From: Psilocybe azurescens
Lineage: Eukaryota; Basidiomycota; Agaricomycetes; Agaricales; Agrocybaceae
NCBI GenBank assembly: GCA_023853785.1
Contig: JAJIRX010001058.1
Coordinates: 18,599 to 82,598, forward strand
Direction: 5' to 3'
Length of the DNA: 64,000 bases
Made by a program: the position numbers and the translations under genes. Of the stretch, positions 13,388 through 62,525 are shown piece by piece; position 1 is the stretch's first letter, and each line of letters begins with the position of its first letter. The notes beneath the pieces are model-generated. The model did not search any database. It was given only the letters and a program-made list of their open reading frames with translations, and was not told the origin of the DNA.

Positions 13388-13819
13388 CTTGGGGTGAGGG
13401 GGCGCAAATTAATGCAAAAGGCTGTGTGTTACACTATGAGTGTGGGGGCAATACTAGCTAAATAGCTTTGGAGGGATATCCAAAGTAGCCATTTCGTCTT
13501 TATAGACTCATCAGTAGCTATCGTACGTAAGGAATATTACTATATGCTCCTAAAATAAGCGCGTGTTTACTAAGCTAAGCGCCTATTCTTAGCGAATCGA
13601 CTATCGATTCCTAATCGTTTTGTATTACCTTTGTAATCTTTCTCGTACTAAAACGGGAACGTCAGAGGTCTTACTGACTAATTACAATAGAGCTGATTAA
13701 GCTCGTTTCCAATAATATCGTGGATGATTAGTTATCGAGTCACTTTGATTATGAATCGTAGAGCTAGAGTTGCTCCGATCTAGCATTCTGACTAAAACGT
13801 TAGTCATATTCGAGTAATA
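13388..13819 (-). repeat. PLE pseudo-LTR, distal unit
   Basis: This unit and 13,820-14,250 are tandem copies about 432 bp long. Both contain the block GTTACACTATGAGTGTGGGG, then the hammerhead core, then TAAGCGCC and TAGCGAATCGACTAT, and both end in an AGTAATAGCTT segment. A third copy lies at 62,400-62,830. Tandem, partly duplicated terminal repeats of this sort are typical of Penelope-like elements. Confidence 0.65.
13455..13520 (-). ncRNA. Hammerhead ribozyme, type I (copy 1)
   Basis: On the minus strand the core CUGAUGA (13,514-13,508) is followed by a perfect 4-bp stem II (GUCU/AGAC, loop AUAA) and then GAAA (13,495-13,492). Stem III is UGGC pairing with GCUA, a UAC bulge, then UUUGG pairing with CCAAA around an 8-nt loop. 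The cleavage triplet is AUU (13,463-13,461), and stem I is UAGCUA (13,520-13,515) with UAGCUA (13,460-13,455). The predicted cut is between 13,461 and 13,460. All invariant core bases of the hammerhead family are present. Confidence 0.85.
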
Positions 13820-14250
13820 GCTTGGGGAGAGGTGGTGCTAAAAGCGAAATCTGCAGGTTACACTATGAGTGTGGGGGCGATATGTGCTAAATTGGAGGGT
13901 TATCCAAAGTAGCCATTTCGTCTTTATAGACTCATCAGTAGCTATCGTATGTAAGGAATATTACTAAATGCTCTTAAAATAGGGCGCGCGTTTACTAAGC
14001 TAAGCGCCCTATTCTTAGCGAATCGACTATTGATTACTCATCCTTTTATTGTTATCTTTGTAATCTTTCTCAGCGAATGCGAGAAACGTCAAGGTCTTGC
14101 TGACTGATTACAATAGAGTCGATCGACTCATTGCTAATAACATCGTGGGGTGGATTAGTGATCAATTCATCTTGATTATGAATCGACGAGACCGGATTGC
14201 TCCAATCGGTCAATCTGACTAAAAGATTAGTCATGTCAGTGTAATAGCTT
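13820..14250 (-). repeat. PLE pseudo-LTR, proximal unit
   Basis: This is the second tandem unit, next to the reverse transcriptase. It is slightly more diverged around the start (GCTTGGGGAGAGG) but keeps the hammerhead core and the paired GGGCGC/GCGCCC-like segments near 13,982-14,013. Its end continues into sequence shared with the other PLE copy (GAGAATAGAC, then CTACTAATCCGGCGG). Confidence 0.6.
13886..13944 (-). ncRNA. Hammerhead ribozyme, type I (copy 2, stem III weakened)
   Basis: CUGAUGA (13,938-13,932), the identical stem II with loop AUAA, and GAAA (13,919-13,916) are intact. Stem I pairs GCUA with UAGC, and AUU precedes the cut at 13,890/13,889. Relative to copy 1 the base of stem III has lost several nucleotides (CCAAUU instead of CCAAAGCUAUU), so pairing next to the core is poor and activity may be reduced. 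The outer UUUGG/CCAA pairing remains. Confidence 0.7.
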
Positions 14251-14550
14251 ACCAATCGTGTCGAGAATAGACACTAGACTTTATAATTGTCTATCCATGT
14301 ACTTATGCTACCCGGATAAATCTGGGGCCAAGGTACCGGTCAACGATCCGGACTACTGGGTTCGAATCTACTAATCCGGCGGTGCATCGTGTTGGGCTGC
14401 TTACTAACCTAGGTGTTGGGCAGCTTACTAAGCCAGCGGTGCTTCGTTTTCGGAACGATCCGTTCGTGAGGAAAGTGCCGGTCCCGAGATACATCTTGTA
14501 CATCCTTCCCTAATAAGGCAATTGTTAGAATTACCTATTTGGGTAAGTTC

Positions 14551-14585
14551 GGTTTGGGGTTGATTGGGTTTGGGTTTGGGTTTGG
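14551..14585 (+). repeat. TTTGGG repeat tract in the PLE
   Basis: The tract has three consecutive GGGTTT units preceded by GGTTTGGGG. It resembles variant telomeric repeats and could form a G-quadruplex on the plus strand. An equivalent tract sits at the same place in the second PLE copy (63,167-63,201). A shorter GGTTTGGGGTTTGGGG lies at 14,651-14,666. Confidence 0.6.
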
Positions 14586-14623
14586 CTATTACGAATCAAG
14601 ATGTGCTTGTGAGTTGATGTAGG

Positions 14624-16183
14624 TCACTCTATAGCATGAAAATTACATACGGTTTGGGGTTTGGGGTAGCGCATCGCGACAAAGTCGCTAGTAATTTTCT
14701 CATCGATTATTCGCTTTTGAGCTTCTGCCGAATTCTGGATGTTCCCGATCTGGAGATCGTGAGCGTCGGTGTAGTATAATATCTTCACCATCGCTTTCAA
14801 TGGGTATCTGTTCAGTAGCTTTGTCTGAGTCAGATTGATATTCTTCAACGACGTCTTGAATCGTAGGAACGACACCACCTTCTTCGGCGATGTTTTCATC
14901 CAGTTTACGAAAGACTGTTTTCTTCCATACATTTGCAAGGTCGAATAGATTTGTGTTGCGTTTCCGGGACACAATCCAACGACTTCCGAGTAGTCCTATC
15001 TTCCTCAAGTCCGGAACATACACTTCGTCTCCGTCAAGTTGAAGCCGCGCAAACAGCTCCGGTCTGACATCACTGAGGTCGTGTTCATCCCTCGTCACTT
15101 GGTTTGATAAAGGGTCTGGATGCGGAGGCACTAAAGTCTCCTTTCTCAGCGTGGTCGTACCACTCTGACCAGTACTCGGTAACAGCTTTTCCAAGTTCGG
15201 CAGCTGAGAACCAATTCCATACGTCGTCAAATCTGGTTTTAAGTACAAGAACACCTTCGTCGTGCTCTACGACTCGCGGTGCAAATCGTTTTTCCCAACG
15301 TTCTTGTATGTTTTTCTTACACCAGCTTATGACTAGTTTTTCGGGATAGCCAGCGCGTTAAATAGAGAGCGTTAAGGTCTCTAATTGCCTCTATGTAGAT
15401 ATCCTTTGAACTACATAACACGGCTAACCGGGATAACTCACCGATGTAGACGCCTCTTTTGACGTCCAACGGATGATGTGATACCCATGGAACTCGTTCT
15501 CGATTGTTTCCAGACTTGACATACGGCTTCCATTGAAGTTTTCCAGACTTCTTGAAGAGGAAGCTGTCGAGAAATTGACATCCAGTCTCTGAAACAGCCC
15601 ATTCAATCACACATTCATCAAAACGAATTGTCTTTTCGACAAAGTCGAGGGCTGCTTGCGCTGATTCTGCGTAAACTATGCCTAGGCAATCGTCGATGTA
15701 CCTTCCATAGAAGGCCACGTCGGGATGGTCTAATATCTTTGAACGTTTTCGAAATGGTATCCGTAAAGGTTGGCAAGGTCGGCAGAATCCGCGACCCCCA
15801 TTGCGAGTCCACTTAATTGTTCAAAGTATTTATCACCATGTTGTGTGATTAATTGCGTATTGCCAATCTCGATGGCACTTTTAAAGATGTTTAACTTAAT
15901 CTTATTATTCTCTAACGAATTAGGATTAAGGTGTGACAATGCATCGTCCGCATCCGAATTGCTTAAAAGCCACTCGTACATTGAACAAATGATTTCTATG
16001 CACGATTTAAGCGGTATATTCGGGTAATAGGCGACAACATCTCCTGTGACAAAGTAAAACTTTCGTCTGGAGTCTATACGCAATTGGCTTAACCTCGTGA
16101 AGAGGTCCTTCGTACCGTGAATGATAGAAGGAGCCGCTTTTACAAGCGGTTTAAGCTCTTTGATATGAACTTAGCAGCCGGAT
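14624..16183 (-). pseudogene. Broken reverse transcriptase of the Penelope-like element
   Basis: The conserved core is spread over successive frames: residues leading into FVTGDVVAYYPNIPL (motif A with the catalytic Asp) and GLAMGVADSADLANLYG (motif B) lie in 16,083-15,730; GRYIDDCLGIVYA (motif C, YIDD) lies in 15,718-15,317; the Trp- and Lys-rich thumb region (SWCKKNIQERWEKRF) lies near 15,330-15,280; an acidic C-terminal tail ends near 14,700. Each junction needs one added base (near 16,165, 15,737 and 15,355), and a further stop lies near 15,115. All catalytic aspartates are kept, so loss of frame is recent or partly a sequencing effect. The N-terminus is not seen. Confidence 0.7.
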
Positions 16184-16194
16184 TAAATACGACC

Positions 16195-16375
16195 GAATGA
16201 CTTGGGGTTATGGGATACATTTTGTTTTGTTGCCTGGGGTGGTGGGGTTTTAAAATTGTTAGGGTGGGGTGGGGTGGGTTTATGGTGGGCTGGGCAAGAC
16301 GGCGATACGGTAGGGTCAACGGGTAGAGAGGGTGGGGCAGTGTGTGGTACATAGGTAGTTGAGGCGTGAAAGAGC
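16195..16375 (+). repeat. G-rich low-complexity spacer
   Basis: This is strand-asymmetric DNA with runs such as GGGTGGGGTGGGGTGGG. It separates the 5' end of the PLE from the minisatellite and has no coding potential. The frames on the minus strand are proline/threonine-rich artefacts of the bias. Confidence 0.5.
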
Positions 16376-16379
16376 GAAT

Positions 16380-19300
16380 ATGAGGTTGATTTGTCCTCAT
16401 AATATTCACAGACCGGTTGTGTGTTATACTTGCTGTGTGTGTGTGCAAGTGAGAATACGAGGGCGATTCGTACTCGCATTATTCACAGGTGGTGTACTAT
16501 ACTCGCTGTGTGTGTGCAAGCTGAGAATATCGAGGGCGATTTGTCCTCGCATTATTCATCGGTCGTGTGCTATACTTGCTGTGTGTGTGTGCAAGTGAGA
16601 ATACGAGGGCGATTCGTCCTCACATTATTCACAGGTGGTGTACTGTACTTGTTGTGTGTGTGTGCAGAGTGTAAATCACGAGGACAATTCGTCCTCGTAT
16701 TATTCCACAGGTGGTGTGTTGTACTTGTTGTGTGTGTGTGCAAGTGAGAATACGAGGGCGATTCGTCCTCTCATTATTCACCAGTTGTGTGCTATGTTTG
16801 CTGTGTGTGTGTGTGCAGCGAGAATACGAGGACGATTTGTCCTCGCATTATTCACCAGTTCGCGTGTTATACTTGCTGTGTGTGTGTGCAGAGTGAGAAT
16901 CACGAGGGCGATTCGTCCTCGCAGTATTCACCACTTGTGTGCTATGTTTGCTTTGTGTGTGTGCAAGCGAGAATACGAGGACGATTTGTCCTCGCATTAT
17001 TCACCGGTTGCGTGTTATACTTGCTGTGTGTGTGTGCAGAGTGAGAATACGAGGGCGATTCGTCCCTCGTATTATTCACCAGTTGTTTGTTATACTTCTT
17101 GCTGTGTGTGTGCAAGCTGAGAATACGAGGGCGATTCGTCTTCGCATTATTCACCGGTTGCGTGTTATACTTGCTGTGTGTGTGTGCAAGTGAGAATACA
17201 AGGGCGATTCGTCCTCGCATTATTCACCAGTTGTGTGCTATGTTTGCTGTGTGTGTGTGTGCAGCGAGAATCACGAGGACAATTTGTCCTCGCATTATTC
17301 ACCGGTTGCGTGTTATACTTGCTGTGTGTGTGTGCAGAGTGAGAATCACGAGGGCGATTCGTCCTCGCATTATTCACCAGTTGTGTGCTATGTTTGCTTT
17401 GTGTGTGTGCAAGCGAGAATACGAGGACGATTTGTCCTCGCATTATTCACCGGTTGCGTGTTATACTTGCTGTGTGTGTGTGCAAGTGAGAATACGAGGG
17501 CGATTCGTCCTCGCATTATTCACCAGTTGTGTGCTATGTTTGCTGTGTGTGTGTGTGCAAGCGAGAATACGAGGGCGATTTGTCCTCGCATTATTCATCG
17601 GTCGTGTGCTATACTTGCTGTGTGTGTGTGCAAGTGAGAATACGAGGGCGATTCGTCCTCACATTATTCACAGGTGGTGTACTGTACTTGTTGTGTGTGT
17701 GTGCAGGAGTGTAAATCACGAGGACAATTCGTCCTCGTATTATTCACAGGTGGTGTGTTGTACTTGTTGTGTGTGTGTGCAAGCGAGAATACGAGGGCGA
17801 TTTGTCCTCGCATTATTCATCGATCGTGTGCTATACTTGCTGTGTGTGTGTGCAAGTGAGAATACGAGGGCGATTCGTACTCGCATTATTCACAGGTGGT
17901 GTACTATACTCGCTGTGTGTGTGCAACGAAATACGAGGGCGATTTGTCCTCGCATTATTCATCGATCGTGTGCTATACTTGCTGTGTGTGTGTGCAGAGT
18001 GAGAATACGAGGGCGATTCGTCCTCGTATTATTCACAGGTGGTGTATTGTACTTGTTGTGTGTGTGTGCAAGTGAGAATACGAGGGCGATTCGTCCTCGC
18101 ATTATTCACCAGTTGTGTGCTATGTTTGCTGTGTGTGTGTGTGCAAGCGAGAATACAAGGACGATTTGTCCCTCGCATTATTCACCGGTTGCGTGTTATA
18201 CTTGCTGTGTTTGTGCGCAGAGTGAGAATACGAGGCGATTCGTCCTCGTATTATTCACCAGTTGTGTATTATACTTCTTGCTGTGTGTGTGCAAGTGAGA
18301 ATACGAGGGCGATTCGTCCTCGCATTATTCACCAGTTGTGTGCTATGTTTGCTTTGTGTGTGTGCAAGCGAGAATACGAGGACGATTTGTCCTCGCATTA
18401 TTCACCGGTTGAGTGTTATACTTGCTGTGTGTGTGCGCGAAGTGAGAATACGAGGGCGATTCGTCCCTCGTATTATTCACCAGTTGTGTATTATACTTCT
18501 TGCTGTGTGTGTGCAGAGTGAGAATCACGAGGGCGATTCGTCCCTCGCATTATTCACAGGTGGTGTACTGTACTTGTTGTGTGTATGTGCAAGTGTAAAT
18601 ACGAGGACAATTCGTCCTCGCATTATTCACCAGTTGTGTGCTATACTTGCTGTGTGTGTGTGCAGAGTGAGAATCACGAGGGCGATTCGTCCTCGTATTA
18701 TTCACCAGTTGTGTGTTATACTTCTTGCTGTGTGTGTGCAGAGTGAGAATACGAGGGCGATTCGTCCTCGCATTATTCACAGGTGGTGTACTGTACTTGT
18801 TGTGTGTGTGTGCAGAGTGTAAATACGAGGACGATTTGTCCCTCGCATTATTCACCGGTTCCGTGTTATACTTGCTGTGTGTGTGTGCAAGTGAGAATAC
18901 GAGTGCAATTTGTCCTCGCATTATTCACCAGTTGTGTGTTGTACTTGCTGTGTGTGTGTGCAGAGTGAGAATACGAGGGCGATTCGTCCTCGCATTATTC
19001 ACCAGTTGTGTGCTATGTTTGCTGTGTGTGTGTGTGCAAGCGAGAATACGAGGACGATTTGTCCTTGCATTATTCACCGGTTGCGTGTTATACTTGCTGT
19101 GTATGTGTGCAAGTGAGAATACGAGTGCGATTCATCCCTCGCATTATTCACCAGTTGTGTGTTATCCTTGCTGTGTGTGTGTGCAAGTGAGAATACAAGG
19201 GCGATTCGTCCCTCGCATTATTCACCAGTTGTGTGCTATGTTTGCTGTGTGTGTGTGTGTAAGCGAGAATACGAGGACGATTCGTCCTCGCATTATTCAC

Positions 19301-20340
19301 CGGTTGCGTGTTATACTTGCTGTGTGTGTGTGCAAGTGAGAATACGAGGGCGATTCGTCTTCGCATTATTCACAGGTGGTGTACTGTACTTGTTATGTGT
19401 GTGTGCAAATGTAAATACGAGGACAATTCGTCCTCGTATTATTCACAGGTGGTGTGTTGTACTTGTTGTGTGTGTGTGCAAGTGAGAATATGAGCGCGAT
19501 TTGTCCTCGCATTATTCACCGGTTGTGTGCTATACTTGCTCTGTGTGTGTGCAAGTGAGAATACAAGTGCGATTCGTCCTCGCATTATTCACCAGTTGTG
19601 TGTTATACTTGCTGTGTGTGTGTGCAATTGAGAGTACGAGGGCGATTCGTCCTTACATTATTCTCTGGTTGCGTGCTATACTCGCTGTGTGCGTGCAAGT
19701 GTCAATACGAGGACAATTTATCATTGCATTAATCACAGGTTGTGTACGATGCACTTATTTTAGTGTCCGAGTGCGAATGTAACGACAATTTCTACCCACA
19801 ATATTAACCAGTTTTTGTTTGCTACGATTGCTGTGTCCTTGTGCAAATTAGAATATGAGGACGATTCGTACTCACCATATTTACTGTTTATTTATGCTAT
19901 GTACTTGTGTGTACTGTTTATGTATGCTATGTACTTGTGGGAATGTGAAATTGTGAATGTGAGGATGATTTCTCCTCGCATCGTTCACTGGTTGTATGCT
20001 ATACTGTGCTGTGCCAGTGTCCAAGTGTGAATTTGAGGGCGGTTCGTACTCACAATGTTCAATATTTTATGTATGCTATATACTTATGGGAGTGTGCAAT
20101 TGAGAATGTGAGGACAATTCATCCTTGTGTTATTCGCAGGTTGTTGGTGATTCTTTGCTGTGTGAGTGTTCAAGTGAGAATATGAGGACGATACGTGATC
20201 ACAATAATAATGGTTTATGTATGTTATGTATTTGTGTTAGTGTGCAACCTTGAATATGAGGACGATTAGTCCTCGCATTATTCAAGGCTTGTGCGTGGTG
20301 GTTTGCTGTGTGAGTGACCAATTGAGAATGTGAGCACAAT
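16380..20340 (+). repeat. Minisatellite of about 75 bp with a palindromic core
   Basis: About 45 regular units run from 16,380 to about 19,790, then roughly seven degraded ones to 20,340. Each unit has a hairpin (in the best copy, 19,272-19,290, CGAGGACGATTCGTCCTCG), then CATTATTCACC, a TGTGCTAT segment and a (TG)n tract ending in CAAG. Unit length varies from 73 to 77, mainly through the (TG)n tract and single-base changes. Long open frames through the array, up to 403 codons, encode only the repeat (RIRGRFVLALFTG, VLYLLCVCA) in all phases and are not evidence of a protein. The array adjoins the telomere-type PLE, so a subtelomeric origin is possible. Confidence 0.9.
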
Positions 20341-62462: not shown

Positions 62463-62525
62463 GCTAAATGACTTTGGAGGGGATCCAAAGTAGCCATTTC
62501 GTCTTTATAGACTCATCAGTAGCTA
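62463..62525 (-). ncRNA. Hammerhead ribozyme, type I (copy 3)
   Basis: CUGAUGA (62,519-62,513), stem II GUCU/AGAC with loop AUAA, and GAAA (62,500-62,497) are intact. Stem III pairs UGGC with GUCA and UUUGG with CCAAA around a UAC bulge. AUU (62,469-62,467) precedes the predicted cut at 62,467/62,466. Stem I is GCUA/UAGC. Compared with copy 1, two stem III pairs change from G-U to G-C and from G-C to G-U, so pairing is kept. Confidence 0.85.

Follow-up and report, generated by a model that had tools for sequence, protein, structure and literature searches.

A mostly telomeric Penelope-type element of Psilocybe azurescens carries conserved type I hammerhead ribozymes in its pseudo-LTRs

Hammerhead ribozymes (HHRs) have been known since 2014 in the pseudo-long terminal repeats (pseudo-LTRs) of Penelope-like elements (PLEs; cited in PMC11167929, PMC6431247 and PMC7761336), and a passage of a 2020 review calls their role there a mystery (PMC7761336). 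Here we describe such a ribozyme in a 64,000-nucleotide stretch of Psilocybe azurescens contig JAJIRX010001058.1 (the window, to which plain positions refer), where it lies on the minus strand within a mostly telomeric PLE; contigs of the genome are given as C plus a number. The Terminons of bdelloid rotifers, which carry the Athena reverse transcriptase (RT), share two traits with this element in the account excerpted from PMC6431247: a 3′ HHR adjoins short telomere-complementary repeats, and 5′-truncated units capped by telomere repeats are chained head to tail. The present element differs from them in its units of ~4.4 kb, in place of giant units with several open reading frames (ORFs), in its fungal host and in its CCCCAAA tail. 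Its long stem III also contrasts with the HHRs of PLEs and Terminons, which a section of PMC7761336 calls minimal variants without helix III or loop–loop contacts. As in our element, the HHR of Poseidon PAc from Anolis lies near the border between pseudo-LTR and ORF, but PAc has a GIY-YIG domain and its ORF starts in stem II, whereas here the first ATG follows 89–96 nt past the predicted cut and GIY-YIG was not found (PAc as outlined in PMC11167929). Fungal, repeat-borne hammerheads have been described since 2011 in Yarrowia lipolytica, as here but in a different host phylum (excerpt of PMC3088659), and PLEs at chromosome ends are noted in a passage on Agaricus bisporus (PMC7473861).

The PLE hammerheads of Cervera and De la Pena 2014 are type I and occupy both pseudo-LTRs, as here, and no difference from them is demonstrable. 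PLE-borne HHRs, and HHRs combined with a telomeric tail, are already known as kinds; this element is a further case, to which we add data on copy number, covariation and termini. The abstract of Cervera and De la Pena 2014 reportedly states that fungal PLEs carry HHR variants stable as monomers, and the Coprina elements of Gladyshev and Arkhipova 2007 are reported to be fungal, endonuclease (EN)-deficient, telomere-attached PLEs, traits shared with our element. None of the literature matches listed was an open paper on this fungal case, which says little, as the main papers lay outside the search.

The sequence confirms the window feature as a genuine type I hammerhead, with cleavage predicted. 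Copy 1 (13445..13530, minus strand) reads GCUA-CUGAUGA-GUCU(AUAA)AGAC-GAAA-UGGC(UAC)UUUGG-loop-CCAAA-GCUAUU/UAGC, where the slash marks the predicted cut at 13461/13460. The full type I layout is present, comprising an intact core, a stem II of 4 bp, a stem III of 5+5 bp with a UAC bulge, and an AUU triplet; stem I is closed by UAGC after AUU and extends beyond a 3-nt bulge as CGAUA with UAUUG. On the minus strand, these parts occupy 13523-13515 with 13460-13449 (stem I, with the bulge), 13514-13508 (CUGAUGA), 13507-13496 (stem II), 13495-13492 (GAAA) and 13492-13462 (stem III). The family shows the CUGANGA/GAAA core, three helices and NUH cut of type I hammerheads, the triplet being AUU, and AUA in some copies. 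Copy 3, close to the contig end (62451..62535, minus strand), has its predicted cut at 62467/62466. When the hammerhead fold was forced, copies 1 and 3 lay 1.0 and 2.0 kcal/mol, respectively, above the minimum free energy, and they scored 110 and 106.4 bits with our own covariance model R1; R1 was trained on a set including all three window copies. Copy 2 (13874..13954, minus strand; predicted cut 13890/13889, 429 nt from that of copy 1; R1 80.9 bits) matches copy 1 in the core and 5′ side but lacks 5 nt of the 3′ strand of stem III. Because its forced fold lies 11.3 kcal/mol above the optimum, this copy is probably weak, disabled or inactive. The initial annotation of the window had proposed the same cut, AUU triplet and bulged stem III, CUGAUGA, stem II and GAAA in both tandem units, and a weakened stem III in copy 2, all of which we recovered.

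Across the 70.4-Mb genome, a 38-nt family pattern (≤3 mismatches) gave 105 matches and none in the reversed control. A generic core, CTGATGAGN10CGAAA with a 4-bp stem II and a 4-nt loop, was found 92 times, compared to 2 reversed matches, and all 92 share the stem II and loop letters of the element family with at most 2 changes. In these matches, the second pair of stem II is U-A, A-U (C312), C-G (C439, C440, C916) or U-G (C373, C621), with a mismatch in one copy (C913). Alignment A1 comprised 38 sequences, three 5′-truncated ones among 41 distinct ribozyme sequences having been dropped; 99.7% of its cells pair, and two-sided changes occur at 2 pairs, a number reached by 1 of 500 shuffles. In alignment A2, 19 sequences chosen for diversity (18 of the 38, near-duplicates dropped, plus L059), 99.4% of cells pair and two-sided changes occur at 4 pairs against 0.7 expected, which none of 500 shuffles reached. 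Compensatory change is present in stem II and in both parts of stem III, and the C440 copy has all three altered in a compensating way. Inner stem I is invariant and therefore gives no covariation evidence. In the 38 aligned copies, which were picked by core likeness, the unpaired catalytic core is no more variable than the stems.

Conservation of the ribozyme also differs from that of its surroundings. Between subfamilies A and B, identity is 95–97% in the ribozyme and averages 63–65% in the upstream pseudo-LTR and 49–61% in the tail; between subfamily B and the lineage of C312:28998, it is 85–87% in the ribozyme and 64–66% upstream. For the C262 row of this comparison, in which less upstream sequence is present, the upstream identities cannot be set beside the others. 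Locating 62 tails by tail sequence alone, we found the core intact in 59, with two 5′-truncated units missing part or all of the ribozyme and one decayed copy, a count that leans to intact ribozymes since the stretches were chosen for holding them. Setting aside the two truncations, which fall within or beyond the ribozyme, 59 of the remaining 60 tails thus retain an intact core.

The element that carries the ribozyme has the direct pseudo-LTRs around an ORF that characterize PLEs. On C423, pseudo-LTRs of at least 868 nt (one reaches the contig start), 98.9% identical and 4.46 kb apart, flank the ORF. Matching to this element, together with the junction, delimits in the window a 5′-truncated pseudo-LTR unit with copy 1 (13389..13821, minus strand). 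Next to it lie a 3′ pseudo-LTR with copy 2 (13822..14624, minus strand; border at 14624 approximate) and a 5′-truncated, frame-broken RT remnant of the ribozyme-bearing element (14700..16205, minus strand; 5′ border approximate). No Pfam model scored above cut-off for the RT pieces in the window, and a PDB search by sequence returned only Drt3a (E 0.0045), which is uninformative. GIY-YIG (PF01541) has one match in the genome, on C224, which is not among the listed contigs that carry ribozyme or RT copies, and no such Pfam annotation was present in the 120 of 210 relatives listed; the missing detectable domain fits the EN-deficient branch of PLEs. The earlier assignment of a hammerhead to the sense strand of pseudo-LTR units in a fungal PLE with no detectable GIY-YIG is upheld.

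Neighboring ribozymes less than 6 kb apart in the genome (n=37) are spaced by 141 to 5936 nt, and 9 of these spacings correspond to a full unit of 4409–4479 nt, which excludes the giant multi-ORF unit of Terminons. The initial annotation had further expected tandem units to yield a self-processed RNA of ~430 nt. As a general product, this RNA was rejected on the same 37 spacings: the 429-nt distance is an accident of one 5′-truncated unit, and of the two cuts required, the one in copy 2 probably cannot be made. In all nine pseudo-LTRs located upstream of an ORF, the predicted cut lies 89–96 nt before the first ATG.

We scored 63 copies, of which 9 precede an ORF and 54 are element 3′ ends; two places on C911 without a recognizable cut motif were set aside. 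A C-rich telomere-like run is present in all 54 3′ ends. The tail, (CCCCAAA)n, is complementary to TTTGGGG, and in 61 of the 63 copies its start lies 58–71 nt beyond the predicted cut; in the two outlying tails, which have extra TCACCCC repeats, the run starts 79 and 82 nt beyond the cut. In the window, the post-cut 3′ tail of copy 1 (13389..13460, minus strand) ends CCCCTCACCCCAA and meets DNA not matching the element at 13389/13388, and that of copy 2 (13822..13889, minus strand) ends CTCCCCAA and is joined directly to the 5′-truncated copy 1 unit at 13822/13821. In 27 of the 54 3′ ends, the junction reads CCCCAA and continues with G, and in 20 of those with GC. At least three CCCC-A units are found in 10 of the 54, and one or two in the nine upstream pseudo-LTRs. 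Among 53 classified 3′ ends, 28 adjoin DNA that matches neither of two reference elements and 25 adjoin another unit, and several 5′-truncated units start directly after telomere-like repeats (C873:4796, C319:1920). Such a junction pattern is the trace that attachment to telomerase-made ends would be expected to leave. A CCCAAA run also occurs within the pseudo-LTR, at 14566-14585 in the window and in other units; several downstream units start there, as if it acted like a second annealing site.

The telomere repeat of this genome appears to be TTTGGGG, not TTAGGG, with the array at only three contig termini. No TTAGGG array of 4 units occurs in the genome, and (TTTGGGG)n is located at the termini of C8, C262 and C528, G-rich outward, as well as at one inter-unit junction (C153:135987) and one 3′ junction (C262:1361); the reversed control is uninformative for this search, as reversing the repeat yields an identical array. 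C568 encodes a telomerase RNA-binding domain. According to extracts of a Basidiomycota survey, TTAGGG is found in most species and variants in some (PMC10100673), and an extract on Agrocybe, an agaric, gives a TTAGGG telomere (PMC11433599); TTTGGGG is absent from the main texts of both papers. Orientation was counted for 62 of the 105 genome matches, on 25 contigs of known length. All copies within 15 kb of a contig end point inward at 25 of 26 such ends, the exception being the start of C440. The remaining six of the 62 copies are deeper than 15 kb and do not follow the inward rule: all six are on the minus strand, and 5 are closer to the start of their contig than to its end. The window array (13.4-16.2 kb) is likewise internal, 32-35 kb from the contig start, and probably represents an older chromosome-end array that became buried. 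Telomere position, inward orientation and a telomere-complementary 3′ tail, the traits of EN-deficient telomere-attached PLEs, are all present.

The predicted cut coincides with none of the 54 3′ ends of the element, nor with any of 25 mapped unit 5′ starts (two placed roughly), the nearest of which is 12 nt past it. Cleaved ends are therefore not the start or end of the insertions examined. In addition, C19 contains a seamless ORF–pseudo-LTR–ORF–pseudo-LTR stretch with the ribozyme in its middle; given this stretch and the lack of ends at the cut, the copied RNA would have been uncleaved or re-ligated in the cases seen. With the 429-nt RNA not general and insertions neither starting nor ending at the cut, the functional interpretation of the initial annotation is borne out only in part.

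We favor, with a probability of roughly 0.65, a reading of these sequences in which a conserved type I hammerhead resides in the pseudo-LTRs of a mostly telomeric Penelope-type element that is copied by tail priming, and in which self-cleavage in the pseudo-LTR would divide the RNA between coding and template use. Judging from the tail match, element RNA would anneal by its C-rich tail to the chromosome end and be copied there, so that the 5′ ends of chained units would face the telomere. Sense transcripts may self-cleave in the pseudo-LTR: the cut in the upstream pseudo-LTR would free a coding RNA with its first ATG 89–96 nt downstream, and the cut in the downstream one would remove the telomere-matching tail. 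Most likely, cleavage yields the coding RNA and strips the tail, with uncleaved or re-ligated RNA serving as the telomere template. A bolder version, which we consider doubtful, would make the ribozyme a switch between two RNA fates, a cleaved messenger and an uncleaved or re-circularized telomere-healing RNA, with the tail having tracked the host's unusual telomere repeat.

Several observations weigh against the favored reading. Rfam gave no match at gathering score in the window, which by the yardstick set in the initial annotation is unfavorable; below gathering, the only matches were to RF00008, which scored 24.3 bits for copies 1 and 2 (gathering 48.5, E 0.0096) and covered stem II and the core, and to RF03152 (RAGATH-1 hammerhead), which scored 22.1 bits (E 0.34) on copy 1, where the three-way layout is correct, and 15.6 bits (E 9.3) on copy 2. 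The gathering score is a curated cut-off and not a defining trait of the hammerhead fold, and we judge that this miss is outweighed by copy number, conservation and covariation, all of which are independent of Rfam. The free optimum was never exactly the hammerhead fold in the five copies tested, the gap being 1.0–2.0 kcal/mol for three of them, 4.6 kcal/mol for the C440 copy and 11.3 kcal/mol for copy 2. Conservation also extends beyond the ribozyme: sliding windows revealed that subfamilies A and B are already 84–86% identical just upstream of it, and between subfamily A and the C312:28998 lineage, ribozyme and upstream identities are equal (84–87% each). Foldseek places group II intron RT above telomerase for the element's RT. 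Lastly, for the one PLE tested in vitro, the portion of PMC11167929 that treats it reports ribozyme mutants without effect on insertion and no RNA reads starting or ending at the cut, the latter counting against a processing role there; dispensability for insertion fits uncleaved RNA as the template.

The absence of insertion ends at the cut despite a preserved core could also reflect cleavage followed by re-ligation, whereby tandem transcripts would be cut to unit length and circularized, placing the tail again behind the ribozyme, and RT primed at the tail would run round to give pseudo-LTR–ORF–pseudo-LTR. The seamless C19 stretch agrees with this, as do the shared subfamily of the two pseudo-LTRs in all eight units compared and the HHR circles described for retrozymes in a passage of PMC7229834. 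The same layout is, however, explained by linear read-through RNA, and in only four of the eight units (C257u1, C423, C292 and C907, the last a tie) is no other unit closer to the 5′ pseudo-LTR than its own 3′ partner is; C251 and C19 clearly depart from this. We regard the circular route as improbable. A similarly low weight goes to the proposal that the fold is kept mainly as a 3′-terminal structure that binds the RT or makes the C-rich tail accessible to the telomere overhang, with cleavage incidental. The distance of 58–71 nt between cut and tail in 61 of 63 copies would suit such a role, which has been suggested for rotifer Terminons (excerpt of PMC6431247), but a mere fold need not keep the core letters, which are as invariant as the stems and intact in 59 of 60 tails.

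Decay is evident in part of the family, and counts as a further point against the favored reading: among the matches listed, the core is broken in at least 11 family copies, 10 by a G12 to A change at a CpG and one by a G8 to A change not at a CpG. The G12 changes fit the decay of methylated copies. In C300, C836, C291, C825 and others, the ribozyme carries either G12 to A or a stem II C to U change, both at one CpG, which suggests that methylation decay silences the ribozyme core. These losses, the broken RT next to the window copies at 13-14 kb and the damage to copy 2 would all be expected if the motif were a decaying relic with no present function. We find this very unlikely, given that the ribozymes of subfamilies A and B remain 95–97% identical despite diverged flanks and that the family shows double compensatory changes.

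Other features accompany these copies. A 73-nt satellite (45 copies, 16412-19745) adjoins the truncated RT in the window and also occurs on C207, C686 and C927; on C686, a ribozyme copy comes after the satellite, which repeats the order seen in the window. Farther out than copy 3, an RT match marks an RT fragment at C911:82446-82595. On C440, an RT match (18580-19689) lies inside a 634-codon open frame, ~1 kb upstream of the ribozyme with compensated stems.

With ~100 copies, 54 of them with sharp 3′ junctions, the DNA of this fungus itself answers whether cleaved ends get copied: in none of the 54 were they. The agreement between the tail and an apparent non-TTAGGG telomere supports priming of the element directly at chromosome ends.
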